The notes beneath the pieces are model-generated. The model saw only the letters and a program-made list of their open reading frames with translations. It searched no databases and was not told the origin of the DNA. A DNA stretch of 13,115 nucleotides from Planctomycetota bacterium (GTDB lineage Bacteria; Planctomycetota; Phycisphaerae; UBA1845), in NCBI GenBank assembly GCA_022566435.1, contig JADFIX010000022.1:1-13115 (forward strand), read 5' to 3'. Each line of letters opens with the position of its first letter. Position 1 is the stretch's first letter. Of this stretch, positions 1 to 13,115 are shown in pieces. The position numbers were made by a program, and so were the translations under genes.

Positions 1-2441
1 TCTTCGGTCTTAGCTTTCCCCATGGGCTCGATCTCGATCTCGCGTCGGGCCACATGTACTGGACCGACCAGATAACCGGTTTGGTGCAACGGGCCGCCCT
101 GGATGGTTCCGGCATGACGACATTGGTCGGCGGTCAGGTCGAGCCGGTTGACGTGGCTCTCGATCTTGCCGCCGGCAAAATGTACTGGGCCCAAAAGGAC
201 ATTCCCAGCCGAATCCGGCGGTCGAACTTGGACGGCTCGGACGTAGAAACGGTGATCCAGTTCCTCGCCTTTGGCTTTCCGGCGGGATTGGCACTCGATC
301 TCGGCGAAGGCAAGATGTATGTGACATTATCCGACGGCGTGGGGTTTCCCGAGGGGTCGGTTTTTCGGGCGAATCTGGATGGTACCGATAGAGAAGAACT
401 AGTGAGGGTCGGCCTCAACAATCCGGGCGAAATCGCCCTCGACACGGGTCCGTGTACATCGGATGTAGCCTGCGATGATGCAAACAGGTGCACGGACGAC
501 ATCTGTGATCAGGGTCTGTGCGTTTTTGAAACGAACACTTTATCGTGCCACGACGGCAATATCTGCACAAGTGGTGACATATGCTTCGGCGGCGTCTGTG
601 AAGGAACGCCAAACAGCGATCCTTGTTTCGATGGGAATCCGTGCACGGACGACGTCTGTGTCGGCGGTCAGTGCATAGGCACACCAAACACCGCGTCTTG
701 TAGTGACGGGAATGTCTGTACCGACGACGTTTGTTCGGGGGGCGAGTGTGTGGGCACGCCAAACACCGCGCCGTGCGATGACGGGAATTTCTGCACCGAC
801 GACGATTGTTCGGGCGGCGAGTGTGTGGGAACACCGAATAGCGAACCGTGTAGCGACAACAACGAGTGTACTGATAACGACACTTGCTCGGGTGGCGAGT
901 GCGTGGGAACACCGCATACGAGACTATGCGATGACATGAACCCCTGTACCGACGATGTATGCGCCGATGGCGTGTGTGTCTCTACGCCGAATAATCGTCT
1001 TTGCAGCGACGGAAACGGATGCACCCATGACGTCTGCACGAACGGAGAATGCGTGAGCACGCCGCATGGCGGAAACTGCAACGACCTGAACCAGTGCACC
1101 ATCGACGACCGCTGTACCGATGGAACTTGTTTGGGCACTGTCATCACCGGGCCGTCCTGCAACGACGGAAACAGTTGTACCAGCGATGACGTGTGTACCC
1201 ATGGCGTTTGTCGCGGATCGGCGATTCCGGGTGAGTGTCCGATTTTCCGAGTTTGGGTCAGAGAGGTTTACGATGCCGACCTTGTGCCAAAATGCGGAGC
1301 GACCTGCCCCACGCAGAACCTGCCCGAGGGGATCGCCGTGCCGGGCGACTTTGTCGACATCGAGTTTACGGTAGAGGGTTGGGCTTCGATAACCCCGGTT
1401 GGCAGGCACGCCGTAGTTTTCCAATGCACCTTGGATGGCGCTACATTTTCACTCGGGCACGCGCGGCCCGGATTCCGTGTCGCCGACTTTCCCTGTAGCA
1501 CGCACGAGGATTGCCTATGTACTTACACTAGCATCCAAGGCGAATTCAACGATTGCGCTGATTTTACCGCGATCAGTCCCGCCTTTTGCACATGCGCGGG
1601 AGCGACGTGTAACGCGGGCGCTCAAACATGTAGTATCGAGGCTTCGGTGTACATCGACAGGGGGCGATCCGATTTCTTGTTCCAGCCCGTGGTGAACGTT
1701 TCCGTCGTGGCCACTTTGCCCGTTCCGCTTCTCAAATGGGCCGCCTTGGATATCGGCTCCTTTGGCGTACCTGAATTCGACCCCGGTCTACAGCGTGTAC
1801 CGCCATACTATATGGGTACGCTTCTGGTTCAGGTGGAAGATGTCGTCGCGGGAACGTACGTCATCGATTTAGTGCAAGATGAAAACCAAACTTTCTTGAG
1901 CAAATTGCCCGATGGAATTTTCCCGTTCCCGGCAGTCGTTCCGCTTACGATTACACTCGGCGATTTTGAGGGCGATGACGACGATGACGGCGTGCCCAAC
2001 GCCGGCGACAACTGTCTTCTCATACCGAATCCCTCGCAGACGGACCAAGACGGCGACGGGGTCGGGAACGTTTGCGACAACTGCCCGGCTGTGGCCAACG
2101 TCGATCAGACGGACACGGACGGCGACGGGGTGGGAGATGCATGTGAAGGGGCGTGCTGCCTCGACGATGGTGCGTGTCTTGCCCAAGACGTCGAGACCTG
2201 CCTGTCGGCCGGCGGGACGCCCGGGCCCGAAGGCGCCGACTGCGAGGGCGACGCCGATGGCGACGGAATCGTCGACGCTTGCGATCTTTGCCGCGGCATC
2301 GACGATGCCGTGTTCGCACCGGAATGCGAAGGTGCCATACCGACGACATCTCAATGGGGGCTGATCGTACTGACGCTACTGCTTCTGGCGGGCGGAAAGA
2401 TTTACTTCAGCGGCCGGCGCTCGGTGCCGTCGGCGACATGA
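1..2441 (+). CDS. Secreted multi-repeat surface protein with IPTTSQWG sorting tail (5' partial)
   Basis: The reading frame is open to the left edge (first full codon at 3), so the true start and signal peptide lie outside; the ATG at 54 sits inside a YWTD repeat. Visible order: about three YWTD/LDL-receptor class B repeats (MYWTD, MYWAQ, MYVTL, each after a 'LDL..GKMY' type lead) to about base 450, forming part of a beta-propeller; ten cysteine-rich units (471-1235); a region of unrecognised fold (about 1236-1960); thrombospondin-type-3 calcium repeats (DGDGVGNVCDNCP, DGDGVGDAC; about 1965-2145); a 'GACCLDDGACL...C' module common in Phycisphaerae proteins; and IPTTSQWG followed by a hydrophobic helix and GRR near the C-terminus. 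That tail matches the IPTL-CTERM class, which is predicted to be processed by an exosortase-like enzyme. It is probably an exported, calcium-binding, disulfide-rich surface protein. The ligand is unknown. Confidence 0.9.
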   Translation, partial: FGLSFPHGLDLDLASGHMYWTDQITGLVQRAALDGSGMTTLVGGQVEPVDVALDLAAGKMYWAQKDIPSRIRRSNLDGSDVETVIQFLAFGFPAGLALDLGEGKMYVTLSDGVGFPEGSVFRANLDGTDREELVRVGLNNPGEIALDTGPCTSDVACDDANRCTDDICDQGLCVFETNTLSCHDGNICTSGDICFGGVCEGTPNSDPCFDGNPCTDDVCVGGQCIGTPNTASCSDGNVCTDDVCSGGECVGTPNTAPCDDGNFCTDDDCSGGECVGTPNSEPCSDNNECTDNDTCSGGECVGTPHTRLCDDMNPCTDDVCADGVCVSTPNNRLCSDGNGCTHDVCTNGECVSTPHGGNCNDLNQCTIDDRCTDGTCLGTVITGPSCNDGNSCTSDDVCTHGVCRGSAIPGECPIFRVWVREVYDADLVPKCGATCPTQNLPEGIAVPGDFVDIEFTVEGWASITPVGRHAVVFQCTLDGATFSLGHARPGFRVADFPCSTHEDCLCTYTSIQGEFNDCADFTAISPAFCTCAGATCNAGAQTCSIEASVYIDRGRSDFLFQPVVNVSVVATLPVPLLKWAALDIGSFGVPEFDPGLQRVPPYYMGTLLVQVEDVVAGTYVIDLVQDENQTFLSKLPDGIFPFPAVVPLTITLGDFEGDDDDDGVPNAGDNCLLIPNPSQTDQDGDGVGNVCDNCPAVANVDQTDTDGDGVGDACEGACCLDDGACLAQDVETCLSAGGTPGPEGADCEGDADGDGIVDACDLCRGIDDAVFAPECEGAIPTTSQWGLIVLTLLLLAGGKIYFSGRRSVPSAT
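471..1235 (+). repeat. Ten tandem cysteine-rich repeat units in the surface protein
   Basis: Ten consecutive units of roughly 24-27 codons follow the pattern C-x-D-x-N-x-C-T-x-D-x-C-x-x-G-x-C-x-G-T-P. The first begins at base 471 and the tenth at 1158. Each has four cysteines, suggesting internal disulfides in an exported protein. The pattern resembles the Dictyostelium CTDC-type repeat (established family; assignment from memory). Units 3-6 are the most alike (C-DGN-CTDD-C-GGECVGTPN), which suggests recent expansion, while units 1, 2, 9 and 10 are more divergent. The regular base pattern also produces several long open frames on other frames that are not genes. Confidence 0.9.
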
Positions 2442-8935: not shown

Positions 8936-10588
8936 TTAGTGCATCTTTGCGGCGATCGGCATGCGCCTGCCGGTTCCAAACGCTAGGCTGGTCACTTTCA
9001 GGCCGACCGGCAACTGCTTGCGTTTGTATTCCGCCCGTTGGACCATGGTCACGACACGTTGCACGAGTTCCCGATCGAAGCCCATCGCCACGATATCGTC
9101 CGGCGGCCGGTGTTCCTCCACACAGTGTGCCAAGACCCGGTCCAATATCTCGTAGGCGGGTAGCGTATCCTGATCGGTCTGATTCTCCCTCAACTCCGCC
9201 GACGGCGGCTTGGTCAACACGATTTCCGGAATCGGAGGTGTCGAACAGGAGTTATTAATAAGGTGGGCAAGCTCGTATGCGGTGGTCTTCGGCACATCGC
9301 TGAGCACCGCCAGTCCGCCGCACATGTCGCCGTACAACGTGCAGTATCCGACGGCCAGTTCGCTCTTGTTTCCAGTCGTCAAAAGCAGCCACCCATACTT
9401 GTTGGAAAGCGCCATGAGGATCGACCCGCGTATGCGCGCCTGGATGTTTTCCTCCGCGACTCCCGGTGCCTCGGTCCCGAAATGAGGCGCGAGCGTTTTC
9501 TCCATCGCGGCGTGCGCCCCCTCGATCGGAATGACATTGTATTTGATATTCAGATTCGATGCGAGTTGTGCCGCGTCTGTCAGGCTGCCTTCGCTACTGA
9601 AACGAGAGGGCATGGCCACCCCGATCACCCGGGCCGCGCCGATCGCCTCGACTGCCAAGGCGGCCGTCAGGGCGGAGTCAATCCCGCCTGACAAGCCGAT
9701 GACGACTTTCTCGAACCCGCACTTGTAAACGTAATCGCGAATTCCCAAGACAAGTGCCTGGCGCATTCCTTCGAGCCTGCCGGGATAGGGCTCGATTCGA
9801 TTGGCCGCCGCGTTGGAGAAATCGACGATCAGAAGGTCCTCTTCGAACGGTTTTGCGCGTGCGATCACGTTTCCCTTCGCGTCCAGTGCCAAGCTTGCGC
9901 CGTCGAAAATGAGATCGTCGTTCCCGCCTACCTGATTCACATACGCGAGCGGTACGGAGAGCTTTCGAATTTGTTCGCGAAAAATCGACTCGCGATCCGT
10001 CTGCTTGCCCGCCGTGTACGGCGACCCGGATAAGTTGATCAACAACTCCGCACCGGACTTGACCGTGTCGGCGATCGGATCGAATCCGTACACGCGATGA
10101 CCTGCGAATTGTCGGTCATTCCAAAGGTCTTCACAGATCGAGAGTCCCACGCCCACCGATTGATCGCCGGCGGGCACGTCGACGACCACACTGGTGAGCC
10201 CTTGGTCGAAGTGTCGCGTTTCATCGAAGACGTCGTACGTGGGGAGAAGTCGTTTGGCGTAGGACGTCAAAACCCGGCCGTTACGGCAAACGGCGGCGGC
10301 ATTGAGAATACCCTTTCCCGTGCTGCTGGAATCGGGCTTGACGAAGCCGACGATGACCGTGAGATTCGTACAATGCGACGCGATTCGATCAATCGCCGAC
10401 TGGGAACGCCGGACGAGGTCATCCCGCATTACCAGATCCTTCGGTGGGTAGCCGAAAACGGCCAGTTCGGGGAAAACGACGAGATGCGCGCCGGCATCAC
10501 GCGCGATACTGACGCGAGCGAGGATCGCGTCTGTATTGCCGTCAATATCGCCGACAATCGAATCGAGCTGGGCTAGTGCGACGATCAC
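8936..10588 (-). CDS. nadE: Glutamine-dependent NAD+ synthetase
   Basis: NadE catalyses the last step of NAD+ synthesis: nicotinate adenine dinucleotide, ATP and glutamine give NAD+, AMP, PPi and glutamate, in the cytoplasm. The 550 residues fit the two-domain form. The N-terminal nitrilase-type glutaminase (about 1-260) has the triad E41 (FPELAVFGYPP), K112 (SYAKRLLPTYDVFDE) and C152 (LSICEDLWND). The C-terminal synthetase has the PP-loop SGGIDS (300-305), MPSRFSSEGS, and TTGNKSELAVGY with the GD-MCGGLAVLSDVPKT segment, all intact. The start is GTG at 10588: the protein begins at the usual place (IVALAQLDSIVGDI) and an in-frame TGA stands just upstream, so no other start is possible further out. 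A candidate structured leader RNA lies about 130 bases upstream on the same strand. Confidence 0.97.
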   Translation of the reverse strand: MIVALAQLDSIVGDIDGNTDAILARVSIARDAGAHLVVFPELAVFGYPPKDLVMRDDLVRRSQSAIDRIASHCTNLTVIVGFVKPDSSSTGKGILNAAAVCRNGRVLTSYAKRLLPTYDVFDETRHFDQGLTSVVVDVPAGDQSVGVGLSICEDLWNDRQFAGHRVYGFDPIADTVKSGAELLINLSGSPYTAGKQTDRESIFREQIRKLSVPLAYVNQVGGNDDLIFDGASLALDAKGNVIARAKPFEEDLLIVDFSNAAANRIEPYPGRLEGMRQALVLGIRDYVYKCGFEKVVIGLSGGIDSALTAALAVEAIGAARVIGVAMPSRFSSEGSLTDAAQLASNLNIKYNVIPIEGAHAAMEKTLAPHFGTEAPGVAEENIQARIRGSILMALSNKYGWLLLTTGNKSELAVGYCTLYGDMCGGLAVLSDVPKTTAYELAHLINNSCSTPPIPEIVLTKPPSAELRENQTDQDTLPAYEILDRVLAHCVEEHRPPDDIVAMGFDRELVQRVVTMVQRAEYKRKQLPVGLKVTSLAFGTGRRMPIAAKMH

Positions 10589-10718
10589 GTGACCGAAATC
10601 CCATCACCAAGGGGAAAGCTTACGTCTAGTCGCATTGATTCTAGCGGATTCGAGCGTCGTCGAACATAAGGCGGTTTGAGTTGCGGGCGGCAGGTAGAAA
10701 ACGCGGCATGTGCCACCG

Positions 10719-10736
10719 AAAAAAAAACGAATCGTC
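10719..10736 (-). terminator. Candidate intrinsic terminator 3' arm with T9
   Basis: On the minus strand GACGATTCG is followed directly by nine Ts. Its nine-base partner is far away (10922-10914), enclosing other stems, so if it works as a terminator it closes a pre-folded multi-branch structure rather than a simple hairpin. Confidence 0.4.
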
Positions 10737-10750
10737 CACAGCGCGCAAAA

Positions 10751-10825
10751 AACGAGACCTGTGCGGATCCTCCGTGTTCGGGCCGGAGAGAGGAAGGTGG
10801 AGAACCCAAATGCACAGGCCTCGTT
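10751..10825. other. Long stem-loop, 13 bp with one mismatch
   Basis: AACGAGACCTGTGC (10751-10764) pairs with GCACAGGCCTCGTT (10812-10825) with a single A/C mismatch. The 47-base interior contains a smaller CTCCG/CGGAG stem (10770-10774/10784-10788). On the minus strand the stem is followed by a run of six Ts in total (counting those in the stem), giving a second terminator-like end within the same region. Confidence 0.6.
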
Positions 10826-11082
10826 ATATCGGCAACCGCTTCGGGCTTTCGCAAGCCCGCCCTAACGTCGTAGGGCAAGGCCCCCGATTCCAACCCTCAG
10901 AAGAATCGTCAAAGACGATTCGCGTCGGTAATCGAGTCACGAATTCTCGAACTTCAAACACCGCAATGGCGGCTTCAACCGTTTGAGTTCATGTTCCAAT
11001 AGCAGACGGTGAATCAATCGTCCGCTAAGTCCCAGCAATGCTAGCAAGTTTGATGCCACTAGGCAACATGTCTACCATGATT

Positions 11083-11110
11083 GGACCGAAAATTAGAAAG
11101 TTTTCGGACC
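11083..11110. promoter_or_regulatory. Inverted repeat of 10-bp arms between nadE and the copper genes
   Basis: GGACCGAAAA (11083-11092) and TTTTCGGACC (11101-11110) are inverted copies with one mismatch around an eight-base centre. It lies about 240 bases before the CopZ-like gene in a region with no coding signal. It could be an operator or a small hairpin; no promoter I would stand behind is visible next to it. The rest of 10923-11350 shows an AT-rich spot near 11185-11205 and nothing else I can name. Confidence 0.35.
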
Positions 11111-11350
11111 TCTTAACGCTGTTTTGGCCGAGACGTCCCGAATTCGAGGCAAAACGTGAGCAGGACACGGGCAGATCGTAAAGAGAAAATAATTATTTTT
11201 ACAAGAACAGGAAACACGACGCGTTCCAAAACTCCGATAGTTCGTCGTCGCTGCGTGGCTTCTCTTCAAATACGTAGACTATGAAACGCGGTGCGATAGA
11301 ATGGTCCGATCCCAGGTGGTAAAAGCTGCGGTCGGCTTGTCCGGAAATTC

Positions 11351-11569
11351 ATGAAAATCACTCTCTTCGTCACCGGCATGCACTGCGAACACTGTTGCGG
11401 CACTGTCGAGTCGGCCTTGATGGCGGTCCCAGGGCTTGAATCGTGCAAGGTCGAGGTTGGGGTCGTCGAATTCGTGTACGACGAAACGACAACACGAAAA
11501 TCAGACTTGTTGGCCGCGGTCCGTCGAGCGGGTGCGTTTAACATCGAACGATTTGAGGCCGCCAACTGA
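11351..11569 (+). CDS. CopZ-like heavy-metal-associated (HMA) metallochaperone
   Basis: This is a 72-residue single HMA domain. The metal loop is G9-M-H-C12-E-H-C15, with the two cysteines that bind Cu+ in this family; a third cysteine, C16, follows directly. The beta-alpha-beta-beta-alpha-beta order fits (KITLFVTG, CGTVESALMAVPG, SCKVEVGVVEFVYDE, KSDLLAAVRRAG). CopZ-type proteins carry Cu+ in the cytoplasm to the N-terminal domain of a P1B ATPase, and such an ATPase follows immediately. The ATG at 11351 gives the standard domain start; the ribosome binding site is weak (GGA five bases upstream). The stop TGA overlaps a CTG codon that may be the start of the ATPase. Confidence 0.9.
   Translation: MKITLFVTGMHCEHCCGTVESALMAVPGLESCKVEVGVVEFVYDETTTRKSDLLAAVRRAGAFNIERFEAAN
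11555..11568 (+). promoter_or_regulatory. Possible ribosome binding site and CTG start coupled to the CopZ-like stop
   Basis: GAGG (11555-11558) is followed by seven bases and CTG (11566-11568), which overlaps the stop TGA of the CopZ-like gene as CTGA. The frame from this CTG runs straight into the ATPase HMA domain. CTG starts are rare in bacteria, so this is tentative; ATT at 11581 is another non-standard option. Confidence 0.35.
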
Positions 11570-13115
11570 CAGGCGAATCAATTCGACAATCCGAACCCGA
11601 ACCATCGTCGAGCATCTTTCTTCGCCTCGAAGGGATGACCTGCGGTAGTTGTGCGGCGCGCATTGAGCGAGCCCTGAGCGCGACTGCGGGTGTTCAGCGG
11701 GTGACGGTTAATCTCGCCACGGCGCTGGCGACGGTTCATGTCGGCGCCGCTGATGTGACCGTCGGTCGATTGATCGAGGCCGTTCGTCATGTCGGCTACG
11801 ATGCCGAAAGAGTGCGGCCGGGGTCGCAGACATCTACTGGATTTGAAGAAACCCAGGTGGCTAATCTGCGGGCGCACAAACAGGCAATAGTTCATAGCGT
11901 CGGTCTAGGACTACCGGTCCTTGCGGTGTTCTGGCTCGCGCCGGTTGTTCAGGGGCGAGATTCTGCGAGCCATATCTGGCCGCAAGCGATTCAAGCCTTG
12001 TTGATGCTCACGTTGCTCGCATCTACCGCGGGTGCGCCGATTTTGGCCGGCGGTATTCGTGCGGTGATCCATCGATCACCGAACATGGACCTTCTCGTGA
12101 GTCTGGGCGTTTCGGTGGCTTTCCTGTCGGGCGTGGGTTGCCTTTTCGGTGCGCAGATCGACGCCGCCCACTTCCACGCTGCGGCGATGATCTTGATCTT
12201 TATCAATGTGGGTCGCTACCTCGAAACCCGCGCCAAAAGAGATGCCTCCGGTGCGATCGCCGCTCTGGTCCGTCGCCTGCCCCGCACCGCACAACTAGAA
12301 ACGAATGAAGGCATCAAGACGGTTCGCCTGGAGAGTGTAAAAGTAGGCGACCGATTACGTGTCGCCCAGGACACGGTCGTGCCGGTGGACGGTCGTGTGT
12401 TGGATGGAGAAGCGGCCGTCGACGAAAGTAGTGTTACCGGTGAGTCTGTTCCGTTGCATCGCTCCTCTGGCGATGATGGGGCGTATCATTCGTGCCGTGG
12501 AGGAGGCGCAATCGGGCAAGACGCGCATGCAGCGACTGGCGGACCGAGTGGCGGGCGGGTTCGTGCCTCTTGTGATTCTCTTGGCCTTGCTCACATTTGG
12601 GGTGAATTGGCTGGCCGATTTTTCGGTGGGGGTGGCCGTCAGTCGGGCGATTGCCGTGCTCGTCATTGCCTGTCCATGTGCGATGGGGCTGGCGACGCCG
12701 ACGGCGGTATTGGTCGCGACGGGCACCGCGGCCCTCGACGGGATTCTTGTACGAGATGCGGCCGCGTTGGAGGCCGCCGGTCAGGTCGACGTCGTGCTCC
12801 TGGACAAGACGGGTACGCTGACCACGGGCATGCCGGTTGTCAAAGAGGTGGTCGACGAGGCGATCGGACCGGCGACGCTGGATGATAATGAAGTGCTGCG
12901 GCTGGCGGCGTCGGCCGAGCAGTTTTCGCAGCATCCTCTCGCGAAGGCGATCGTCGCGAAGGCGAAGGAGCGGGGGTTGACGCTCTCGGATCCGGATTCA
13001 TACGAAAGCCGGGCCGGGCTCGGGGTGACCGCCCGGATGGAAGGACGAACGATTCGTGTCGGAAGTACGGCATTCCTTTCCGATGCCGGGATCGACACCG
13101 AAGCCGTTCGGGAGC
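11566..13115 (+). pseudogene. copA: Cu+-type P1B ATPase (CopA-like), frameshifted by internal deletion; 3' end outside window
   Basis: These pumps export Cu+ across the inner membrane using ATP. Part one (frame of ATG 11635) has an HMA domain whose first strand, IFLRLEGMTCGSC, begins before that ATG; four membrane helices (about residues 84-106, 118-146, 151-172, 180-197 counted from that ATG); and the actuator motif TGES (from 268). After SSGDD (ends 12477) the frame turns to nonsense and stops at 12885. Part two continues in the +1 neighbouring frame from about 12461 (APLAMMGRIIRAVEEAQ) to the window end, with the CPC motif (from 12671), DKTGT (from 12803) and HP (12932-12937). The actuator stretch between these parts (roughly 25 residues in the family) is absent. 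Codons upstream of 11635 are open to a TGA at 11554, with CTG 11566 the only start-like codon. It is a probable pseudogene or an assembly error. Confidence 0.8.
12461..12485 (+). other. Deletion/frameshift junction in the copper ATPase
   Basis: The segment CTCTGGCGATGATGGGG reads as S-G-D-D-G in the upstream frame and P-L-A-M-M-G in the downstream frame. Both readings fit conserved positions on either side of the missing actuator segment, so a short repeat of CTGGCGATGATG-like sequence probably recombined, removing 3n+2 bases. Confidence 0.65.

Follow-up and report, generated by a model that had tools for sequence, protein, structure and literature searches.

A predicted small RNA with a fixed-loop terminator hairpin and a sigma-54-type promoter in one order of Planctomycetota

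The stretch upstream of nadE in the window of planctomycete DNA analyzed here (contig JADFIX010000022.1, 13,115 nucleotides) carries on its minus strand a conserved hairpin that we consider likely to form the 3' terminus of an independent small RNA, a member of an apparently undescribed family which, as far as we searched, belongs to one order of Planctomycetota. The features that speak for this reading can be seen in the sequences themselves: the hairpin, the covariation of its stems, a fixed loop, a T-run, a sigma-54-type promoter, no detected Hfq, and independence from nadE at most loci. The RNA would be about 285 nt long, extending from approximately position 11032 to position 10747. Its transcription would start at the sigma-54-type promoter and stop at the hairpin, which would serve as both terminator and working part and would present an unpaired loop (UCCYCUCUCCGGCCCGAAC as an RNA consensus) on replaceable stems. 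The RNA may act in trans, in which case its most likely partner would be the ribosome-binding region of an mRNA, contacted through the CU-rich half of the loop in an Hfq-independent manner. The family offers predicted defined ends, a promoter, an operator candidate and a recognition loop in an order in which Hfq was not detected, and Hfq-independent action of small RNAs thereby becomes a testable question. It also corrects a tempting misreading, in which a hairpin before nadE is taken for a riboswitch.

Results and Discussion

Structure and covariation of the hairpin

The positions of the predicted RNA, its parts and its nearest neighbors are listed in Table 1. In most members of the family an outer helix is followed by a bulge on the 5' side and by an inner helix, which is capped by a loop of about 25 nt that holds TCCTCTCTCCGGCCCGAACA; in the aligned members having the outer helix, the bulge measures 4-8 nt on the 5' side and 0-1 nt on the 3' side. 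The loop is the most conserved part of the hairpin. In an alignment of 67 rows, 66 share the core CGGCCCGA without change and the remaining one is gapped there, and a loop profile shows mild variation in the CU-rich part 5' of the core and a stricter GGCCCGAAC half. Because members were found by the loop or by a model, selection accounts for part of the loop's constancy, though not for its contrast with the stems. One locus outside this alignment (L132, positions 600-690) has an altered loop core, CGACCCGA. The 67 rows were obtained from 81 matches by removing one weak source (L026), one chance match (L053) and five duplicates (L059, L086, L090, L094 and L097), and the first copy at L071 and six opposite-strand matches of five hairpins were also lost by way of a lower threshold.

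Table 1. Predicted RNA and associated features in the window.
Feature	Position	Strand	Remark
Sigma-54 (RpoN) type -24/-12 promoter, TGGCATcaaacTTGCT	11043..11058	-	14 of 15 points
Expected transcription start	11030..11034	-	placed about 12 nt past the -12 GC
5' part of predicted RNA	10825..11029	-	folds locally; missing where the promoter abuts the hairpin
Local hairpin GAATCGTC-TTT-GACGATTC (elements 1 and 2)	10903..10922	-	no match in relatives
Conserved hairpin, 3' end of predicted RNA	10746..10824	-	covariance model R1, 79.6 bits (not independent: the window is among the 15 sequences from which R1 was built)
Outer helix, 5' arm, ACGAGGCCTGTGC	10812..10824	-	pairs with 10764-10752
5'-side bulge ATTT	10808..10811	-	between outer and inner helix
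Inner helix, 5' arm, GGGTTCTCC	10799..10807	-	pairs with 10773-10765
Near-invariant apical loop sequence TCCTCTCTCCGGCCCGAACA	10775..10794	-	alignment of members
Inner helix, 3' arm, GGAGGATCC	10765..10773	-	pairs with 10799-10807
Outer helix, 3' arm, GCACAGGTCTCGT	10752..10764	-	pairs with 10812-10824
T6, putative intrinsic terminator, expected RNA 3' end	10747..10752	-	directly after the hairpin
Element 3 (GACGATTCG) and T9	10719..10736	-	lies past the terminator; no conservation observed
nadE, glutamine-dependent NAD synthetase	8936..10588	-	CN_hydrolase and NAD_synthase domains
Small metal-binding protein gene, divergent upstream neighbor	11351..11569	+	open frame

A short kind of hairpin lacks both the bulge and the outer helix (L002, L044, L142, L143 and L153); L145 and L151 were also grouped with it. 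The window's own genome carries the RNA a second time as L002 (contig C676, positions 1487-1544), so that it holds two copies with the same loop on unrelated stems. Two or three hairpins stand in tandem on one strand at nine loci, with L071 as a tenth. At L010 and L071 the T-run is found solely behind the last hairpin. At L075 and L082, two of the six tandem groups examined, both hairpins have a T-run of their own (7-8 T in 8) and may therefore end separate transcripts.

Evidence that the stems are maintained as paired structures comes from arm swapping and from alignments. The arms of 32 members pair with their own partners at a mean of -42.2 kcal/mol versus -24.4 ± 1.2 kcal/mol when swapped, a difference reached by none of 10,000 permutations, and in 19 of the 32 no foreign arm equals the member's own. 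(Four of 36 rows had been dropped: the second match of L052, the chance match L053, and L002 and L044, which have no outer helix.) When 15 members, almost all from family f1, were aligned with MAFFT without reference to structure, 17 of 21 pairs were found changed on both sides versus 7.6 in shuffles, and the 41 alignment cells changed on both sides compare with 12.6 ± 3.3 (0 of 500 shuffles) and with 3-11 in slid controls. The alignment of 65 distinct rows, unlike that of the 15 members, was fitted to the structure; it contains 356 such cells versus 83 ± 10 in shuffles (0 of 500) and 55-84 with slid partners. All 21 pairs covary in these 65 rows, an uninformative count given that shuffles average 19.0 and 38 of 500 reach 21. 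The covariation in relatives by which the original prediction proposed to be tested is thus found in the hairpin 10824-10752 and not in its three elements at 10922, 10910 and 10736. Open frames of 101 and 102 aa overlap this place; since bulge and loop lengths shift by single bases and the stems by paired changes, we do not take them for genes.

Distribution of the family

When the region was used as a DNA query, matches were found in 27 of 100 genomes (the window's own included), nearly all of them to the hairpin alone and often identical over 20-24 loop bases. The 19-base loop core occurs in 21 stretches of a genome collection with one genome per species (84,980 genomes), all titled as planctomycete and mostly as Phycisphaerae or Planctomycetota. 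The model R1 matched 41 of 51 genomes of the family and 44 of 298 genomes of the class, and all 44 are in the window's order. Within the order, a second model, R2, matched 81 of 114 genomes, seven of them with a best E of just about 7e-4 to 0.01, and the matching genomes carry one to five copies each. The other 33 gave no R2 match; in 18 of these, completeness is 90% or more and contamination 5% or less. Across the phylum, R2 matched three of 392 sampled genomes, namely the window's own genome and two at E of about 0.006, which we took as noise, rejecting occurrence outside the order. Occurrence in viruses was likewise rejected: the sole 17-mer match in viral contigs (L053) has no such hairpin and is taken as chance. 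The genomes are mostly incomplete assemblies and the E-values of the models are rough. Additionally, members of a clade are not independent of one another, a kinship that the clustered promoter count given below eases in part.

The original prediction had recognized no known RNA family here, and an Rfam search of the window (including NAD-I, NAD-II, 6S and Qrr) agrees, with no matches. When positions 10550-11300 were searched at E ≤ 10, the single match was on the plus strand (11125-11203) and far below the cut-off. Among 20 loci of the family (E ≤ 0.5) nothing matched at the hairpin on its strand; three tRNAs were above the cut-off and two other matches far below theirs, one of the two being mir-427 (E 0.2), which overlaps the L010 hairpin on the wrong strand. 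In the literature searched, which lay outside supplements and preprints, the exact loop strings occur in no paper and no description of the family was found among the best matches; the best matches of topic searches included no paper on small RNAs of Planctomycetota.

Terminator, promoter and candidate activator

The hairpin has the form of an intrinsic terminator, a GC-rich stem followed by a T-run. In 40 of 55 locus groups the eight bases behind the last hairpin include at least six T, a density reached by 2 groups at a control position 150 nt further on.

On the same strand upstream we identified sites resembling the sigma-54 promoter, whose consensus is TGGCAC-N5-TTGCW. The 56 unique loci out of 102 locus groups were clustered to 50 independent ones, and 39 of these have a site of at least 13 of 15 points within about 300 nt upstream; the corresponding control counts are 3 on the reverse strand, 2 and 2 further upstream (300 nt), and 1 and 0 downstream. 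In a second set of 28 loci such a site is present at 16, as compared with 4 when the reverse strand is scored and with 1 in the stretch further upstream; this last is L133, which may have a distant promoter. Good sites are lacking at 11 of the 50 loci and at 12 of the 28, the 12 including L154, where the contig ends early and the site scores 12, and which probably does not belong to the family. Copies of this sort, among them L002, L142, L143, L145 and L151-L153, indicate that not every member is sigma-54-driven. Upstream of L002 we saw by eye a sigma-70-like -10 box (TATAGT), and likewise upstream of some other copies of this kind. Of the order's 114 genomes, 105 have a detected rpoN gene, the window's own included. 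Both attributes looked for in a sigma-54-dependent small RNA, a -24/-12 promoter on the right strand and rpoN in the genome, were found.

Transcription from sigma-54 promoters starts about 12 nt after the -12 GC. The original prediction had placed the 5' end near 10930; the promoter-like site at 11058-11043 would put the start about 100 bases further upstream. In the window this promoter ends 218 nt before the hairpin, and for the intervening 5' part of the predicted RNA no similarity was found in the DNA search of 100 genomes. In nine of the ten family-f4 loci of the 28-locus set the best site (scoring 14-15 in seven, 13 in one and 12 in one) ends only 13-25 nt before the hairpin, and in the tenth 87 nt before it; where the promoter abuts the hairpin in this way, the RNA would contain hardly anything else. 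A weaker second sigma-54-like site, TGGTAGacatgTTGCC (11063-11078, minus strand), directly precedes the main one in the window.

A promoter of the sigma-54 type would probably require an enhancer-binding activator. Upstream of many of these promoters we observed a dyad, TGNGGNAWWTNCCNCA, matched in at least 10 of 12 positions at 22 of 42 loci, as against none and 3 of the 42 in the stretches downstream and further upstream, respectively, with the pattern derived from the same 42 loci on which it was counted. In the second set it is present at 7 of 16 loci versus 2% in shuffles, these loci being partly close kin of the first (L129 and L087, for example). The window itself has no enhancer-like dyad, its best match being 7 of 12. 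A gene for a sigma-54 activator lies directly upstream of the RNA at L073, L075 and L082, the last two from one genus. The encoded proteins have a Fis-type DNA-binding domain and, at L075 and L082, a receiver domain too; each is possibly the regulator of the adjoining RNA. Just upstream of the sigma-54 site, the window also contains an inverted repeat, GGTCCGAAAA / TTTTCGGTCC (11083-11110, 9 of 10 paired), a possible activator site or terminator. More tentatively, and with considerable doubt, these RNAs could constitute an order-wide, sigma-54-commanded regulon of Hfq-less Planctomycetota, in which one activator acting at the operator TGNGGNAWWTNCCNCA would drive one or several RNAs that present the same 20-nt loop on interchangeable stems to an RNA-binding protein or a conserved RNA.

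Relation to nadE

According to the original prediction, the region holds a terminator-bearing, switch-like RNA in the leader of nadE that perhaps senses NAD. Structure, terminator and lack of an Rfam family are borne out; the roles of nadE leader and NAD sensor are not. The three elements named there (10922-10914, CGAATCGTC; 10910-10903, GACGATTC; 10736-10728, GACGATTCG) are present to the letter, T9 follows the third directly at 10727-10719, and the start of nadE at 10588 is indeed 130 bases past 10719. The minus strand of 10922-10719 folds at -87.8 kcal/mol (z = -4.16, equaled by 1 of 200 shuffles), in keeping with a structured RNA, and a perfect 9-bp helix such as the long-range one is rare by chance (one present versus a mean of 0.022 per shuffle in 500 mononucleotide shuffles). 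A stem with a GCGA loop can be read in the sequence as claimed (GGGCTT GCGA AAGCCC) and is absent from the minimum-energy fold. Both of the mutually exclusive pairings exist, with best folds that differ by 1-4 kcal/mol, and in the folding model the winner depends on the assumed 5' end: the long-range pairing has P = 0.96 and 0.99 for ends at 10922 and 10930 and 0.87 for an end at 11060, and the local pairing has P = 0.96 and 0.97 for ends at 11031 and 11034. The most stable part is the stem 10824-10752 with its T6, a stem that had been listed merely among several, and T9 with the 9-bp helix stands behind it. Besides the region itself, the DNA search of 100 genomes gave 33 matches, none of which holds elements 1 and 2. 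Thirty-one fall within positions 135-214 of the query, 30 of them in the hairpin part and one weak match (G065, E 0.005) at element 3 and T6. Two (G040 and G059, E of about 0.006) fall between the hairpin and the elements; these two and the weak G065 match, the second in that genome, are probably chance similarities. We rejected the two-fold switch: its elements are real, yet they were not found in relatives, and its outcome hangs on the assumed 5' end.

Genomic context bears on the same question. A riboswitch or attenuator of nadE would always stand 5' of this gene on the same strand, an arrangement found at 16 of 56 loci, all in one orientation. Among the remaining 40 loci, the following frame is convergent at 20, codirectional at 17 and not seen at 3, as counted by a simple, uncurated rule from frames of at least 120 aa within a flank of about 1.5 kb, less at contig ends. 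The linkage to nadE occurs in family f1 and once in f7. Because copZ or copA also flank about half of the nadE-linked loci, our simplest conjecture for the linkage in f1 is a common ancestry of these loci. Upstream of the terminator no credible DNA similarity beyond the hairpin, and no aptamer conserved in sequence, was seen among relatives, and in several members the promoter stands 13-26 nt before the hairpin, which leaves no room for one. On genomic context, the lack of an Rfam match and the lack of a visible aptamer we rejected a riboswitch for NAD or any other ligand. We regard nadE as a neighbor whose regulation by the RNA is putative; a purely trans-acting RNA leaves the one-orientation linkage at 16 loci unexplained.

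Mode of action and alternative explanations

Since the letters of the loop are fixed while the stems swap freely, the loop is probably read by another molecule. None of the order's 114 genomes gave a hit for Hfq (PF17209), which was detected in 5 of 14 control genomes, including E. coli. A search for antisense targets by 13-mer complement gave 17 exact places outside the RNAs in 51 genomes, versus 8 for the reversed control; 16 of the 17 lie in stop-free frames of at least 164 codons and one in a frame of 95, and we rejected them as targets. In the start regions of nadE at 16 loci, pairing with the loop is no better than chance (mean z 0.11). The absence of a conserved long complement and the stricter conservation of the GGCCCGAAC half relative to the CU half speak against simple base pairing. 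Action by base pairing is speculative, and we judge it quite possible without calling it probable.

A different partner is conceivable. Csr/Rsm RNAs capture a protein through GGA loops, and the fixed loop could similarly capture an RNA-binding protein, which sigma-54 control would release or trap. The loop that is kept while stems are replaced, the tandem hairpins at ten loci (with a T-run behind the last alone at L010 and L071) and the failure to find an antisense target would all suit such a sponge, as would the weaker conservation of the CU half, the one expected to pair with ribosome-binding sites, relative to the GGCCCGAAC half. On the other hand, there is no candidate protein, most members have a single hairpin and would make a weak sponge, the hairpins at L075 and L082 may end separate transcripts, and a loop without GGA excludes CsrA. 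Protein binding, whether or not as a sponge, thus seems to us possible and rather doubtful, and we prefer mRNA binding by a small margin.

Readings without a separate RNA fit the data much less well. A terminator-controlled leader of nadE with a two-fold switch, perhaps a sensor of NAD or a precursor, would account for the same-strand position at 16 of 56 loci and for two pairings so close in energy. We find it very unlikely, given that no nadE follows in the flank examined at 40 loci, where the next frame is as often convergent, that no conserved aptamer was seen and the switching elements were not found in relatives, that Rfam gives no match, and that the local fold dominates in the predicted full RNA (P 0.96). 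An ordinary hairpin conserved as a terminator alone is about as unlikely: it explains the terminator form, but has no need of a fixed 20-nt loop as the most conserved part, nor of the sigma-54-type promoter that most copies have upstream. Least probable of all is a DNA element, for instance a transposase-mobilized hairpin or an attC-like recombination site. Several copies at different places in some genomes would be in line with it; however, the two copies of the window's genome share the loop and not the stems, and the promoter, like the T-run, is specific to one strand. The constant loop and variable stem seen here are also the reverse of what characterizes attC.

Comparison with known RNAs

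The small RNA interpretation can be compared with several known systems. Qrr RNAs of Vibrio are sigma-54-dependent, driven by an enhancer-binding response regulator, present in several copies with one kept stretch and a 3' terminator, and require Hfq. The present family shares the sigma-54 type of promoter, a candidate enhancer-binding activator, several copies, one kept stretch and the 3' terminator; it differs in that Qrr gave no Rfam match here, Hfq was not found in the 114 genomes, and the kept stretch is the terminator loop. The sponges CsrB/RsmZ and CrcZ carry repeated loops of one sequence per transcript, and CrcZ is sigma-54-dependent, whereas the present family has no GGA loop, no CA-rich Hfq motifs and mostly one hairpin.

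LhrC of Listeria is a multicopy small RNA with CU-rich loop motifs, one of them in the terminator loop; it masks a Shine-Dalgarno sequence and, in the case of lapB, works without Hfq (PMC4132741). It has three UCCC motifs (PMC4132741), in contrast to one 20-nt loop and a sigma-54-type promoter here, the two having been compared via Rfam only; action of the LhrC kind would leave the GGCCCGAAC half of our loop unexplained by ribosome-binding sites. The Rhodopirellula-1 motif, a candidate structured RNA, is listed for Proteobacteria and Planctomycetes (PMC2864571). We set it apart by that description and not by alignment, and identity with the present family is possible; its listed range differs from that of our model, which in the 392-genome sample of the phylum gave no convincing match beyond a single order.

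Other genes near the RNA

Besides nadE, with copZ or copA in some cases, no neighbor gene was found in common, and the neighbors differ between loci. Genes for pyruvate dehydrogenase E1/PrsW, a PMT-type glycosyltransferase and an amidohydrolase are each neighbors at two or so loci, partly in relatives. A malic enzyme gene adjoins the RNA in two genera (L050, the same place as L009, and L070), once convergent downstream and once upstream of it, and genes of the pyruvate:ferredoxin-oxidoreductase type lie near L050 and L083. In the window, we take the product of the divergent metal-binding protein gene to be CopZ-like. A P-type ATPase gene, presumably CopA-like, occupies 11635-13114 of the plus strand and seems to be split over the frames 11635-12885 and 12359-13114, either by an assembly error or as a broken gene; HMA and E1-E2 domains were seen in a relative of this ATPase. 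At the other end of the window, an open frame of more than 800 aa (3-2441, plus strand), rich in cysteine repeats, is cut by the window edge.
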